Positions 4,150-50,173 of a DNA stretch of 64,000 nt are shown in pieces (position 1 is the first letter of the stretch; every line of letters starts with the position of its first letter). Origin of the DNA: Rhodospirillum sp. (lineage in GTDB: Bacteria > Pseudomonadota > Alphaproteobacteria > Rhodospirillales > Rhodospirillaceae); assembly GCA_021741145.1 (NCBI GenBank), contig JAIOYK010000006.1:62001-126000 (forward strand), in the 5' to 3' direction. Below the pieces are notes generated by a model. It made no database searches. It saw only the letters and a list, made by a program, of their open reading frames with translations, and was not told where the DNA came from. Position numbers and translations under genes: made by a program.

Positions 4150-5439
4150 ATGACGAATGTGGCCGTGGTGGGCTCCCAATGGGGAGACGAAGGCAAGGGC
4201 AAGGTGGTGGACTGGCTGTCCGAACGCGCCGATGTGGTGGTGCGCTTCCAGGGCGGCCATAACGCCGGTCATACCCTGGTCATCAATGGCGTGACCTATA
4301 AACTCAGCCTGCTGCCCTCGGGCGCGGTGCGGGGCAAGCTGTCCATCATCGGCAACGGCGTGGTCATCGACCCCTGGGCTCTGTTCGACGAAATCGGCCG
4401 GATCCAGGACCAGGGTGTGACCATCACCCCCGAGGTTCTGCGCATCGCCGAGAACGCGGCGCTGATCCTGCCCCTGCACGGCAACCTGGACCGCGCCCGC
4501 GAAGCCGCGGCCGGAACCTCAAAGATCGGCACCACCGGGCGTGGCATCGGCCCGGCCTACGAGGACAAGGTGGCCCGCCGGGCCATCCGCGTCTGCGACC
4601 TGACCGACGAGGACGTTCTGCGTTTCAAGGTCGACCGCATGCTGACCCACCACAATGCGCTGCTGCGTGGCCTGGGCGAGCCCGAACTGGTGGCCGACAA
4701 CCTGATCGCTGCGCTACTGGAGATGGCGCCCCGCCTGCTGCCCTTCGCCTCCCCCGTCTGGAAGATCCTCGACGAGGCCCGTAAGGCGGGCAAGAAGATC
4801 CTGTTCGAAGGTGCCCAGGGCGCCCTCTTGGACGTGGACCACGGCACCTATCCCTTCGTCACCAGTTCCAACACCGTTTCCGCGGCCGCGGCCTCGGGGT
4901 CGGGCGTGGGACCGGGCAGCGTTGGCTACGTACTGGGCATCACCAAGGCCTATACCACCCGCGTCGGTTCCGGCCCCTTCCCCACCGAGCTCTTCGACGA
5001 GGTGGGCAAGACCCTGGGCGAGCGGGGCCGGGAGTTCGGCACGGTCACCGGTCGGCCCCGCCGATGCGGCTGGTTCGACGCCGTTCTGGTGCGTCAAACC
5101 CTGAAGGTCGGCGGCATTAAAGGCATCGCGCTGACCAAGCTGGACGTGCTTGATGGCATGGAAGAACTGAAGGTCTGCGTGGGCTACAAGCTGAATGGCG
5201 CGGTCCTCGACTATCTCCCCGCCTCGATGAAGGCCCAGGACTCCGTGGAGCCCATCTACGAGACCCTGGAAGGCTGGAAGGAGAGCACCTACGGCGCGCG
5301 GTCCTGGGCCGATTTGCCCGCCACCGCGGTGAAATACATCCGCCGTCTGGAGGAACTGATCGAGACCCCCGTGGCCCTGCTCTCCACCAGCCCGGAGCGC
5401 GAGGACACCATATTGGTTCAAGATCCCTTCCAGGGATAG
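4150..5439 (+). CDS. purA: Adenylosuccinate synthetase
   Basis: '[21 protein letters not shown]' P-loop, '[23 protein letters not shown]', C-term '[18 protein letters not shown]'. Confidence 0.98.
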
Positions 5440-9775: not shown

Positions 9776-11824
9776 ATGGCCCAGGAAGACGGCTCAGACA
9801 AGGGATCGGACAAGGGATCGGGATCGGCCAAATTCGACCCGGTGATCCTACGGGACCGCTACCAGATCGATCCGGCCCAGCATATCCCCGACCTGGACAT
9901 GCCCAACGCGCGCGCCTTCGTCGCCACCGACAAGCGCAACAACCAGCGGAACCTCTACGCTTTGGTCTGCGAAGGGCATTTGCCACCGCGCATCAACCTG
10001 ATGCGTAAGCTGCGCGGCGTGACCTCCCCTGGCCTGATTCCCCTGATCGAATGGGGCACGGTGGACTGGCCACCGATCGAGGGCCGCTGCGTCTCTGTCG
10101 TCTACGAACGCCCCATGGGCGGTCGGGTCATGAAGTCCATGGACGCGGTCTTCCAGCCCGTACCGGATCAACAGTTCATCAAGACCATCGTCAAACCCCT
10201 GATCGCCGCGCTGACGGAAATCCAGTCCCATTCCACGGTGCACCGGGCCATCCGCCCCACCAACCTGTATTGGATCGACAAGGAACAGACCAGGATCGCC
10301 CTTGGGGATTGCACAACCTCGCCCCCCGGCTATCACCAACCCATGATCTGCGAAACCGTCGAAAGCGGCATGGCGGCGCCCGAGGGACGGGGCGCGGGTT
10401 ACTACCCGGAAGACATGTACGCCCTGGGCGCGACCCTGGTGGCCATCTCCATGGGACGGTGCGCCCTGGTCCACGAGAGCGACGACACCATCCTGACCCA
10501 CAAAATCAATAATGGATCCTACGCCACGGTGGTGGGGGAGGAACGGGTGCCGCTGGGCATCATCGAGTTGGTGCGTGGCATGTTGGTGGACGACCCGGAC
10601 CAGCGTTGGACCCTCGAAGCCATCGACATGTGGATGAACGGGCGGCGCATGAACCCCATGCAAACCAAGCAGGACAAGCGCTCCCAACGGCCCTTCATGT
10701 TCCGCAACACGGAGTATTTCACCCGCCGCGCCCTGGCCCATGCCCTGACCCGGGATTGGGAGGCTGGCGCCACGCCCCTGATGGAAGGCAAGGTGGAAAT
10801 CTGGCTGCGCCGGGGCCTTGAACTGCATGAGTTGGCCGATTCCGTGGCGAACGTGATCCGGGCCTCCGGTGCCCGGGCCAAGGACGTGGGCATGGCCCGG
10901 GACATGGCCATGGCTTCGGCCCTGACCCTGATGGATCCCGCCGCGCCCATCCGCTATGGCCGTCTGCGTATCCATATGGAGGCCTTTGGTACGGCCCTGG
11001 CGATTTCCCTGACCAAGAAGCAGGATATCCGCCCCTACGTGGATTTGGTGCAGAAGGATTTTTCCAAGACCTGGATCGCCGCGCAAGAAAGTTTTTCAAC
11101 CGACCATGGGCGCTACGGAGCGGAATTTCGGGAAATGCAAACCTACCTGACCCAGGCGACCAAGGGCGGTGGGGTGGAGCGCTGCCTGTATGAAATGACC
11201 GAATACGTCGCCTGCCGCAGTTCCCTGTTGAAAGACCAATGTGTCCTTGAAATCGCCGACCTGTTGCCAGCCCTGGAACGGGTGTCGGGCAAGGTGGATC
11301 CAAAGACCCCGCCGACGGATCGCCATGTGGTGGCCTTCATCGCCGCGCGCTACGCAAAGGACACCATGCCCCAGATCCATGCCATGAACGACACGGATCC
11401 GCGCAAGGCCACGCTGGGCATGCTCGCGGTCCTCGCCCTGGTCCAATGGAAGATGGGGCCGCCGAGCCTGCCCGGTCTGGCGAGTTGGCTGGGAGGCTTG
11501 ATGACTCCGGTCATCGAAAGCTACCATGGCCGGGACCGGAGGCGGCAGTTGGAAAAGGAAGTCCCCAAGCTGGTGCGCAAGGGCAACTTGCCCGAACTGT
11601 TCAAGCTTCTGGACAATGCCGAGGAACGCCAAGCCGACTTCGATGATTTCGCCGTGGCCCGCCTGCAATACGCCCAGGCCGCCCAGCAGGTGGCCGCCCT
11701 GGAAAGCGGGAACTTCCGGGTCAGTGAGAATTCCGAGAAGCTGGGCCAGCAGGTCGCGGCGTCCATTTCCGCCGCGGTCTCCATTCTTGCGGTCATTTTC
11801 GTCCTTCTCGCCCATTTGGTATAG
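9776..11824 (+). CDS. Protein-kinase-like (pseudokinase-like) protein with C-terminal TM helix
   Basis: C-lobe features 'HSTVHRAIRPTNLYW' (HRD-loop equivalent), 'ALGDCTTSP' (DFG equivalent), 'GMAAPEGRG' (APE), 'PEDMYALGATLVAI'; C-terminal TM 'AAVSILAVIFVLLAHLV'. ATG at 9776; ORF open from 9659. Confidence 0.75.
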   Translation: MAQEDGSDKGSDKGSGSAKFDPVILRDRYQIDPAQHIPDLDMPNARAFVATDKRNNQRNLYALVCEGHLPPRINLMRKLRGVTSPGLIPLIEWGTVDWPPIEGRCVSVVYERPMGGRVMKSMDAVFQPVPDQQFIKTIVKPLIAALTEIQSHSTVHRAIRPTNLYWIDKEQTRIALGDCTTSPPGYHQPMICETVESGMAAPEGRGAGYYPEDMYALGATLVAISMGRCALVHESDDTILTHKINNGSYATVVGEERVPLGIIELVRGMLVDDPDQRWTLEAIDMWMNGRRMNPMQTKQDKRSQRPFMFRNTEYFTRRALAHALTRDWEAGATPLMEGKVEIWLRRGLELHELADSVANVIRASGARAKDVGMARDMAMASALTLMDPAAPIRYGRLRIHMEAFGTALAISLTKKQDIRPYVDLVQKDFSKTWIAAQESFSTDHGRYGAEFREMQTYLTQATKGGGVERCLYEMTEYVACRSSLLKDQCVLEIADLLPALERVSGKVDPKTPPTDRHVVAFIAARYAKDTMPQIHAMNDTDPRKATLGMLAVLALVQWKMGPPSLPGLASWLGGLMTPVIESYHGRDRRRQLEKEVPKLVRKGNLPELFKLLDNAEERQADFDDFAVARLQYAQAAQQVAALESGNFRVSENSEKLGQQVAASISAAVSILAVIFVLLAHLV

Positions 11825-11827
11825 GCC

Positions 11828-12361
11828 ATGGCCAAGAAACCAGAAATCAAAAAGCAGAAGGACGCGGGCCTGGGCTTAGGCGCCAAGTTGATCCTGCTTA
11901 TTGTCCTCGCCGTCATGGCGCTGTTCATCATTCCCACGGTTATCCTGCTATGCGTCGCCATGCTGCCGACCTTCGTGGCGGCGATCACCGACCGCTCCAT
12001 CAGCCGGATGAGCTGGCTCTGCGTGGGTGGTTTGAACTTCTCGGGCACGGTGCCCTTCATCGCCGACCTCTGGATCCGGGGCGGCCACATGGATGCCGCC
12101 CTGTCCTTGGTCACCGATGTCTTCACCATCATGCTGATCTACGGGGCCGCGGGCGTGGGTTGGCTGCTCTATATCTCCGTCCCCCAATTGCTGGGCGCCT
12201 TCATGGCCATGACCGCGACTCACCGGATCGCGACGCTGAAGGCCCAGCAGGAAAAGCTGGGGGACGATTGGGGTCCGGAAGTCCGCGAAGGGGCCGAGGA
12301 GGCGGTGGCCGAATTCATGCGCCGCGGTCGGGTCTCGGATTTCAACACACCGTCGGGATGA
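11828..12361 (+). CDS. Conserved-type small membrane protein, partner of the kinase-like gene
   Basis: 177 aa, about three hydrophobic helices, charged N- and C-termini; starts 4 bp after the kinase-like gene stop. Confidence 0.75.
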   Translation: MAKKPEIKKQKDAGLGLGAKLILLIVLAVMALFIIPTVILLCVAMLPTFVAAITDRSISRMSWLCVGGLNFSGTVPFIADLWIRGGHMDAALSLVTDVFTIMLIYGAAGVGWLLYISVPQLLGAFMAMTATHRIATLKAQQEKLGDDWGPEVREGAEEAVAEFMRRGRVSDFNTPSG

Positions 12362-12475: not shown

Positions 12476-14572
12476 ATGAAGACCATCCTTTCCCCTTCCA
12501 TGGCCTTGGCCCTGGTCGGCGTCGCCCTGCCGGTGTTGGCTCCGCCAGTGGCGGCCCAGGAACCGGGTCCGACTCTGCGACGGATCCTCCTGTCCACCGG
12601 CGGCGTGGGACAGTTCGAATACACCGTCACGGTGGATGGAACGGCGACGGTCACTCTGCCGACCCGCCTGGACCAGGTGAACGACCTCCTGAAAAGCCTG
12701 ACGGTCAACGACCCCAAGGGCACCGCCGTCTCCGCCCGATTGGCCGTGCGCGATCCCCTGCCCGCCCTGTTCCGCGATATGCCCTTCCCGCCCGAGGCCC
12801 TGGAGTCCCCCGAGGCCCTGTTCAGCGCCCTGAGAGGGGAAGAAATCACCGTCTCCGGTCCCAAGGCCATGGCCGGACATATCGTCTCGGTCAATCGGAT
12901 CACCGAAACCACCCCGGACGGCGCCGAGATCGACCGCCATCGGGTTGGCCTGATGACCGACAAGGGCCTGCGGCAATTCATCCTGGAAGACGCAGACACC
13001 ATCGCCCTGACCGACCCGGACATGCGCCAAGATGTCACCGATGCCCTGGCGGCCCTGGCCGACCACCGACGGGAGGACAGCCGGGAGGTGGAGATCACCC
13101 TGCAGGGGAAGGGCACCCGACAGGTTACCCTGGCCCATGTGGCCGAGGTTCCCCTATGGAAGGCGACCTACCGCCTGACCCTGCCCGCCCCCGGGCAGGA
13201 AGATGCCTCGGGCGACGGAGAGTCCGCCTCCCCCAAAAGCCGCCTGACCGGCTGGGCGGTGCTGGAAAACCTGAGCGGCGTTGACTGGAAGACTGTCGAA
13301 CTGGGCGTGGTCTCGGGCACCGCGGCGACCTTCTCCCAGGACCTCTACAGCCCGTATTACGTGGCTCGACAGCAGGTCCCCGTGGAAGTCCGCGACCGCT
13401 CCCTGCCTTCCCCCGATGGGGGCACTCTACCCGAGGGCCGGACCAGCATGGAGGGAGGCGCCATGGAGGACGCCGCCCTGGCACCGCCCCTGTCCCTGGA
13501 CGCCCGGCCCGAGGCGATGATGGCCCTGTCCAAGGCCGCCCCCTCTCCCCGGGCATCCTTCGCCTCCCAAGCCCCCATGGACGCCGCGGACGCCACCCAG
13601 GTGACCGCCCAGGTGGTGTTCACCCTGCCCCAGAAGGTCACCCTTGACACGGGCCAGACCCTGCTGATCCCCCTGACCGACACGGCCATCCCCGTGCAAC
13701 GGGTGGCCCATTATCAGGCCCAAGGATCCGGCCTTCATCCGTGGGCGGCGGCCCGATTGACCAACACGGGCGCGGTGGCCCTTCCCCCCGGCGCGGTCAG
13801 TGTCACCCAGGACACCGTCGATGGGCTCGCCTACCTGGGCGACACCCGCCTGACCACCCTGCCCCCGGGGGGTGAGCGTCTGCTGTCCTTCGCCGTCGAC
13901 CAAGACATCACCGTCCACCAGGACCGGTCCGAGGACCAGCGCCTGTCGGGGCTCACCGCGGCCAAGGGCATCGTCACCCTGCGTCAGGTGGCGCGCTCCG
14001 AAACCGTCTATCGGGTGGAAAATACCGGGCCGGAGGACCGGACTCTCGTCCTCGACCACCCCAAGCGACCCGGTTGGGACCTGAAGGCACCACCGGATTT
14101 CGCGTCCCTGGGTGAAACACCCGACGCCCACCGGCTGCGCTTCGTCGTGCCCGCGGGCGGGTCCATCACCCTGCCTCTGACCCAGGAACGGACCCTGGAT
14201 GAGCGCTATGGCGGGGGAGACCTGAGCGAATCCCTCTTGGCCTCCCTGACGGCGACGGGCGGACTGACGGACAAGGAAAAGCAGGCCGTCGCCCAAATGG
14301 CCCAATTGACCGCCCGGGCCGGAGAATACAATCGCCGCGCCCAAACCCTGGATCGGGATCTGACCCAGGTGGAACAGGACCAGGGACGCCTGCGGGAAAA
14401 TCTGAAGAGCGTACCGGAGGACAGCGACCTGCACGCCCGCTTCATGGAACGCCTGGGACAGTTGGAGGACCGCCTGACCGCCCTGCGTGACCAACGGGCG
14501 GAAGCGGAAAAGGAAGCCGAGTCCGCCAGGGCGGATCTGGCGAATTACGTCGCCGGATTAACCCTCCCGTGA
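12476..14572 (+). CDS. DUF4139-type exported protein
   Basis: Signal peptide ending 'PPVAAQ'; 'GVGQFEYTVTVDGTATVTLPTRLDQVNDLLKSLTVNDPKG', 'WKATYRLTLP..LTGWAVLENLSGVDWKTVELGVVSG' as in DUF4139 proteins; C-terminal coiled coil. Confidence 0.82.
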   Translation: MKTILSPSMALALVGVALPVLAPPVAAQEPGPTLRRILLSTGGVGQFEYTVTVDGTATVTLPTRLDQVNDLLKSLTVNDPKGTAVSARLAVRDPLPALFRDMPFPPEALESPEALFSALRGEEITVSGPKAMAGHIVSVNRITETTPDGAEIDRHRVGLMTDKGLRQFILEDADTIALTDPDMRQDVTDALAALADHRREDSREVEITLQGKGTRQVTLAHVAEVPLWKATYRLTLPAPGQEDASGDGESASPKSRLTGWAVLENLSGVDWKTVELGVVSGTAATFSQDLYSPYYVARQQVPVEVRDRSLPSPDGGTLPEGRTSMEGGAMEDAALAPPLSLDARPEAMMALSKAAPSPRASFASQAPMDAADATQVTAQVVFTLPQKVTLDTGQTLLIPLTDTAIPVQRVAHYQAQGSGLHPWAAARLTNTGAVALPPGAVSVTQDTVDGLAYLGDTRLTTLPPGGERLLSFAVDQDITVHQDRSEDQRLSGLTAAKGIVTLRQVARSETVYRVENTGPEDRTLVLDHPKRPGWDLKAPPDFASLGETPDAHRLRFVVPAGGSITLPLTQERTLDERYGGGDLSESLLASLTATGGLTDKEKQAVAQMAQLTARAGEYNRRAQTLDRDLTQVEQDQGRLRENLKSVPEDSDLHARFMERLGQLEDRLTALRDQRAEAEKEAESARADLANYVAGLTLP

Positions 14573-49878: not shown

Positions 49879-49966
49879 GGACTGGTTTCACCATCCCCTT
49901 TTCACTCCCCACCGCCCACGCGCGCTCCTCTCCTTGCCAAGGAGGAGGGAAACGGGAATAGTGTCT

Positions 49967-50125
49967 GCGTTTTCAGGTCGGGGTGGAAGTCCCCACCGGC
50001 GGCATGCGGTGAAATCCGCGAGCCCGCGAGCGCCTTTTCCATGGGGAATGCCGCGAAGGAAAAGGGTCAAGCAGATCAGGTGAGAGACCTGAGCCGACGG
50101 TCATGATCCAGATGGAAGAGAACGC
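49967..50125 (+). ncRNA. FMN riboswitch (RFN element)
   Basis: Conserved blocks 'ggtcggggtggaagtccccaccggcgg', 'gcccgcgagcg', 'ggtcaagcagatcaggtgagagacctgagccgacggtcatgatccagatggaagag'; P1 gcgttttc/gagaacgc. Confidence 0.96.
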
Positions 50126-50173
50126 GCGGCCTTCCCGCCCCATTCCCGTGGCGCGGGGCGGAAGGTTCCGCGC

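Follow-up and report, generated by a model that had tools for sequence, protein, structure and literature searches.

What does a bacterial membrane protein do if it has kept the fold of a protein kinase but has lost the residues of the usual phosphotransfer, and does the small membrane protein encoded directly behind it share that task? This question is raised by two adjacent genes in a stretch of 64,000 nucleotides of Rhodospirillum sp. (contig JAIOYK010000006.1), which was analysed as a whole and is hereafter called the window. Both open reading frames proposed in the initial annotation are present, and the locus is laid out as follows:

4150–5439 (+), purA, the ancestral upstream neighbour (open reading frame list, Pfam, neighbourhood comparison)
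9776–11824 (+), gene of a tail-anchored pseudokinase of 682 aa (open reading frame list, Pfam, alignment, AF2, Foldseek)
11828–12361 (+), gene of its partner, a membrane protein of 177 aa (AF2 model, family alignment)

The pseudokinase reading frame begins with the ATG at 9776, which is preceded by GGAG about 8 nt upstream and is also the start used in close homologues, and it ends with the TAG at 11822–11824; the partner follows after 3 nt, its reading frame beginning at 11828. In the window, genes for a GDPD and a chemoreceptor lie between purA and the pair. Directly downstream (12476–14572, +) is a gene for a 698-aa protein with weak DUF4139/MuiA-like similarity (TIGR02231, E 3e-7, under the cut-off) and a coiled-coil-like C-terminal stretch, which is foreign to the usual neighbourhood. 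The sole Rfam match within the window is an FMN riboswitch at 49965–50127 (+; RF00050, 87.9 bits).

The 682-aa protein had been recognised as kinase-like from short motifs, and this is confirmed at the level of the predicted structure. The AF2 model, built from an alignment of 74 sequences, has a pLDDT of 92.8 and a pTM of 0.87, and it contains strands β1–β5, a short αC (73–79), αE (131–151) and αF (210–226). The protein is divided as follows:

9839–10651 (+), kinase-fold domain, residues ~22–292 (AF2, Foldseek, Pfam Pkinase)
10691–10951 (+), post-kinase module 1, residues ~306–392, a β hairpin and helices (AF2, profile comparison)
10952–11710 (+), helical C-terminal region, residues ~393–645 (AF2, profile searches)
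11756–11818 (+), C-terminal tail anchor, a hydrophobic helix at residues ~661–681 (AF2, family hydrophobicity)

The best Foldseek matches of the model are PknB/PknA, with TM values up to 0.76 of the target; WNK kinases are also among the matches, and EssB/YukC and MviN domains are absent from the top 50. Comparison with viral structures returned generic kinases only and was set aside. In Pfam, residues 107–283 match Pkinase with an E of 3e-7 and 30.5 bits, just below the cut-off of 31.7, and no other domain of the collection is found in the protein. The matches from NCBIfam and PADLOC are short and confined to the surroundings of the kinase domain, and those from NCBIfam score far under their cut-offs.

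The decisive positions were followed through alignments of 183 family proteins, with an earlier set of 153 members where stated, and they are located in the window gene as follows (family alignment):

9965–9967 (+), Val64, at the position of the β3 (VAIK) Lys
10241–10249 (+), H156-R157-A158, HRA in place of HRD
10262–10264 (+), Asn163, the Asn of HRDxxxxN
10304–10312 (+), G177-D178-C179, the DFG equivalent

The substitutions that had been read from this one protein turn out to be properties of the family. The β3 position is occupied by Lys in none of the 183 proteins and, with the exception of one Arg and one gap, always carries V, I, L, A or M; position 158 is Asp in a single protein and otherwise mostly A, S, G or N; and the Gly-rich loop, said to be missing here, is missing from the family alignment as well. 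A search of the alignment for residues that could restore a catalytic Lys or Asp found none: no Lys is conserved within the N lobe (positions 22–124), where R28 and R72 are the only basic residues with strong conservation. Meanwhile, Asn163, which corresponds to a metal ligand in active kinases, is kept in 177 of 183, and position 178, whose Asp had been described as retained, holds Asp in 119 proteins and Glu in 50 (169 of 183 together). R72 is conserved in 176/183 and R160 in 146/153. Since Asn163 and Asp/Glu178 are kept while the Lys and the HRD Asp are lost, the loss is ordered and not a random decay. One landmark did not hold up, namely the 'APE' at residues 201–203, whose E203 is conserved in only 35/153; judging from conservation, E193 (151/153), just ahead of a helix at 195–199, is more likely the APE Glu. 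Some genomes carry second, more diverged pseudokinase copies with HGA/HGG and GEC/REC motifs and no adjoining partner (L230, L231, L232 and L233).

The region beyond the kinase fold had been described as long and without a recognisable domain, which agrees with the absence of any Pfam family from residues ~306–645, about 350 aa. In the model this part is mainly helical, with two small β hairpins (307–314 and 392–399). An internal repeat of 306–392 against 392–475, with the same hairpin spacing, was considered, and profile comparison did not confirm it, the pieces overlapping at their ends. At the profile level, the helical C-terminal region finds matches in Alphaproteobacteria only; against PDB sequences it gave designed armadillo repeats and other short matches, which were taken as chance. 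The terminal transmembrane helix is a hydrophobic helix in 147/153 members and lies within a model helix at 646–681. Since most members have no other strongly hydrophobic stretch besides this terminal helix, the protein is predicted to be tail-anchored, with its bulk in the cytoplasm.

The second gene had been described as encoding a small membrane protein, and its AF2 model (pLDDT 93.3, pTM 0.70) is that of a helical membrane protein, with helices at 17–44, 46–54, 62–83, 88–96, 98–148 and 150–170, the main ones being 17–44, 62–83 and 98–148. The partner is taken to be integral to the membrane, with about three helices. Near-invariant residues are P47, N70, G73, G111, P119, W148 and G149. The partner of the window has no match in Pfam, NCBIfam or PHROGs; its profile and model found no relative in the PDB, and the fold search gave nothing under an E of 2. 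Isolated Pfam matches occur in 6 of 79 members of the partner family, one each and all to different families, and were taken as chance.

Whether the two proteins belong together was addressed through their distribution. Among 61 related genomes, the pseudokinase is present in 53, covering 42 of the 47 sampled genera of the order, nearly always once and mostly with 34–68% identity over its length, and the partner is present in 51. A scan of the genome contigs with single sequences gave no match, probably owing to over-specific back-translated patterns, while an alignment query gave matches. Profile queries against 385 sampled genomes of the class gave 135 matches per gene, from which four kinase-domain-only matches and two weak partner matches were dropped; 131 genomes then carry both genes, none carries the pseudokinase alone, and two carry the partner alone, both of these being incomplete assemblies (84% and 75%). 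The 131 genomes do not count as 131 independent events, since the co-occurrence follows phylogeny, and a Fisher p-value calculated for it has formal meaning only. Conservation of the pair across about 100 sampled genera takes it far beyond chance. Across sampled genomes of the phylum, full-length homologues were confined to Alphaproteobacteria, and carriers known by name include Pararhodospirillum, Roseospira, Rhodospira, Telmatospirillum, Magnetospirillum, Novispirillum and Azospirillum. The pair is kept even in small genomes of 1.4–2 Mb. Several contigs titled 'Candidatus Marinimicrobia' (L130, L131 and L132 among others) carry the locus with an identity of about 45%, as Rhodospirillaceae do, and the taxon in their titles is probably wrong.

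The usual order, compared over 60 neighbourhoods, is serC – serA – hisZ – purA – pseudokinase – partner, followed on the opposite strand by rpoH and a gene for an RluD-type pseudouridine synthase; the same order is seen with annotation in Azospirillum thermophilum. Pseudokinase and partner are adjacent in about 139/153 members, and they co-occur even when unlinked, so the outcome that the initial annotation named as refuting, a pair not shared by other genomes, did not arise. Pseudokinases with no partner nearby are found at several Magnetospirillum/Phaeospirillum-type loci and in Roseospira visakhapatnamensis. In all nine genomes of this kind the partner is located elsewhere; at one of these loci (L288), the relocated partner still lies beside rpoH. 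The two genes are also apart, on different contigs, in G363, G278 and G091. In addition, both genes have been duplicated together, in tandem in G192 (L118), G336 (L090) and G413 (L234) and as dispersed pairs in G187 and G103. This separation with retention, together with the joint duplication, is the best evidence that the two genes work together.

Several observations run counter to a strict pairing: in a few genomes a second pseudokinase lacks an adjacent partner of its own, and lone extra partners also exist. Two genomes of one genus, G074 (L244, L245, L246) and G206 (L247, L248, L249), have three extra partner copies each with no pseudokinase nearby. The neighbours of these orphan copies, and of the relocated partners of Magnetospirillum, have no shared functional context. 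Co-variation between the two proteins was also calculated over 139 pairs; the signal of a first run was rejected as an artefact of invariant columns, and the co-variation, driven mainly by conserved columns and common ancestry, showed no regional preference and was not counted as evidence.

The closest kinase-plus-module proteins outside the class were found in three other Pseudomonadota loci (L209, L210 and L211; profile E about 1e-30), in which the VxK Lys and HRDIKPGN are kept. These are active-looking kinases with canonical VxK/HRD residues, followed by the post-kinase module of about 85 aa (L209:6843–9482, −; L210:3502–5490, +; L211:1024–3333, +); the module is repeated in L210 and L211 and is absent from Pfam, and no relative of the partner was found in the fetched loci. 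The kinase region and module 1 are also shared by kinase-DUF4011-helicase fusions (L212, L213 and L216), of which L212 and L213 also carry MTES_1575. The fusions L212:2120–8446 (−) and L213:6537–13637 (+) are 2100–2370 aa long, DLHK or Mokosh-like, and are ordered as a cysteine-rich N-terminus, a degenerate kinase, the post-kinase module, DUF4011, an AAA_11/AAA_12 helicase and an MTES_1575 nuclease. In a tree of the kinase C lobe and module 1, a branch with support of 98/94 parts the family from its nearest outsiders; some branches are long and the bootstrap has not settled. Judging from these sequences, the ancestor was likely an active kinase with the module, and catalysis was likely lost before the alphaproteobacterial family spread.

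Bacterial Ser/Thr kinases have been sorted into 42 constraint-defined families, seven of them rich in pseudokinases according to a 2025 review (PMC12599244). By the general definition of a bacterial pseudokinase, a kinase fold with one or more of the three catalytic motifs missing, the present family belongs to this group, while it departs from canonical bacterial Ser/Thr kinases, whose fold it has, in the β3 Lys (0/183) and the HRD Asp (1/183). Compared by their descriptions, none of the seven families appears to fit all the features considered, and the alphaproteobacterial family may already be labelled among the 42. The GLW pseudokinases of proteobacteria (O'Boyle et al.) have GLW in the place of HRD (PMC12599244), whereas here positions 156–158 read HRA, HRS or HRG and the Asn is kept. 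Both have a C-terminal transmembrane region, here in 147/153; the helical C-terminal domain and the membrane partner are not mentioned for GLW proteins. DLHK proteins, whose description fits L212 and L213, share the kinase region and module 1 (E about 1e-17 over the joint stretch), the loss of the Lys and an Arg in the catalytic loop (HRDLR in DLHK, HRAIR here). They keep the HRD Asp, lose the DFG Asp, have no transmembrane region and are often helicase-linked (PMC12599244); the present family is the reverse, with the HRD Asp lost, the DFG Asp/Glu kept, a tail anchor present and no helicase. SelO, an AMPylating enzyme, has lost the HRD Asp and kept the Asn and the DFG Asp (HGVMNTDN/DYG) (PMC12599244). 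The membrane pseudokinases EssB/YukC, of type VII secretion, and MviN are described as non-catalytic scaffolds or non-ATP-binding domains (PMC12599244). They differ from the present family in architecture and phylum and no sequence relation was found; they serve as a works-like analogy of a membrane-bound scaffold. For the Mokosh, PD-T4-6 and MADS6 defence kinases, profile matches cover the kinase-domain stretch only and not the full length, the MADS6 profile reaching 35 bits where the NCBIfam cut-off is 460. The literature searched contained no functional study of the locus; the R. rubrum locus tags were guessed from gene position, which makes the search weak for that species. We regard the proteins as a family of their own among the bacterial membrane pseudokinases, with a membrane partner that looks obligate.

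The reading we prefer, with a probability of about 0.5, is a two-protein module of the inner membrane in which the pseudokinase would act as a non-phosphorylating, possibly nucleotide-gated scaffold. With both the β3 Lys and the catalytic Asp lost across the family, the head is very probably without the usual phosphotransfer to proteins. An ordinary active Ser/Thr kinase with displaced catalytic residues is accordingly very improbable: RefSeq names the Azospirillum protein 'serine/threonine protein kinase', and WNK, with its relocated Lys, is among the structural matches, but no N-lobe Lys is conserved at 22–124 in the 183 proteins and the HRD Asp is missing from 182 of them. The RefSeq name is probably wrong. 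A pure structural scaffold is harder to dismiss and may be held as a possible, if doubtful, alternative, in which the pocket would be empty and the retained residues would hold the fold or a protein contact. It would agree with the absent Gly-rich loop and β3 Lys and the short αC, and with the precedents of EssB as a scaffold and of an MviN domain that does not bind ATP; the near-invariance of exactly the two metal-ligand positions in 183 proteins argues instead for a ligand.

That near-invariance also bears on catalysis of another kind. A 'signalling or scaffold' role and the strict term 'non-catalytic', both from the initial annotation, are here inferred as well, and for the latter the retained metal-ligand Asn and Asp/Glu leave room for unusual chemistry. 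AMPylation or another ATP-dependent modification of the partner or of a membrane substrate would match the SelO-like pattern of a lost HRD Asp beside a kept Asn and DFG Asp/Glu, and phosphate binding could fall to Arg72 and Arg160, as proposed for the DLHK arginines. Such an enzyme is nonetheless unlikely, for SelO retains its β3 Lys (WHLK), which occurs in 0/183 here, and position 158 (mostly A, S, G or N) offers no conserved alternative acidic base; SelO is not known to have a comparable tail-anchor/partner arrangement. Its more specific form, a membrane-tethered transferase that would modify the partner or a membrane substrate through Asn163, Asp/Glu178 and the conserved arginines, is slightly less probable again; it would put the kinase fold to a new enzymatic use, shared by much of the Alphaproteobacteria. 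We give as little credence as to the active kinase to an anti-phage or stress defence module akin to kinase-helicase (DLHK or Mokosh-like) systems. The kinase region and module 1 are indeed common to the kinase-DUF4011-helicase-MTES_1575 fusions, and the PADLOC profiles MkoA and mad6 match the kinase region. Defence genes are usually patchy and mobile; the present family mostly has one copy, commonly in a fixed core position between purA and rpoH, in 42 of the 47 sampled genera of the order and always with a partner, the PADLOC matches are limited to the kinase domain, and PHROGs gave no match.

In the scaffold module that we favour, the pseudokinase head and the helical C-terminal domain would lie in the cytoplasm and be held at the membrane by the C-terminal tail anchor. 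The head would most likely bind a metal-nucleotide or another phosphorylated ligand as a conformational switch; ligand binding is the most likely use of the pocket because Asn163 and Asp/Glu178 are conserved together with Arg72 and Arg160, and R72, judged by sequence, probably sits in or near the pocket. The pseudokinase may then bind and control its partner, and in this way scaffold or regulate a core process of the envelope. Given the tail anchor and the constant membrane partner, a ligand-gated membrane scaffold or regulator is the simplest reading, and by analogy the protein would work like EssB/YukC while standing outside that family.

It can be seen above that the partner is found in essentially every genome with the pseudokinase, which suggests that the pair takes part in a shared basic cell process, and the single copy, the fixed core location and the retention in genomes of 1.4–2 Mb point to a possible housekeeping role. 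Bacterial pseudokinases, membrane-bound ones included, were known already; those with a known job are few, and this family is old, mostly single-copy and has one dedicated partner. The pair is present in the genetically tractable genera Rhodospirillum, Azospirillum and Magnetospirillum, and its near-invariant metal ligands beside lost catalytic residues would allow a clean test of what the pocket of a pseudokinase is for.
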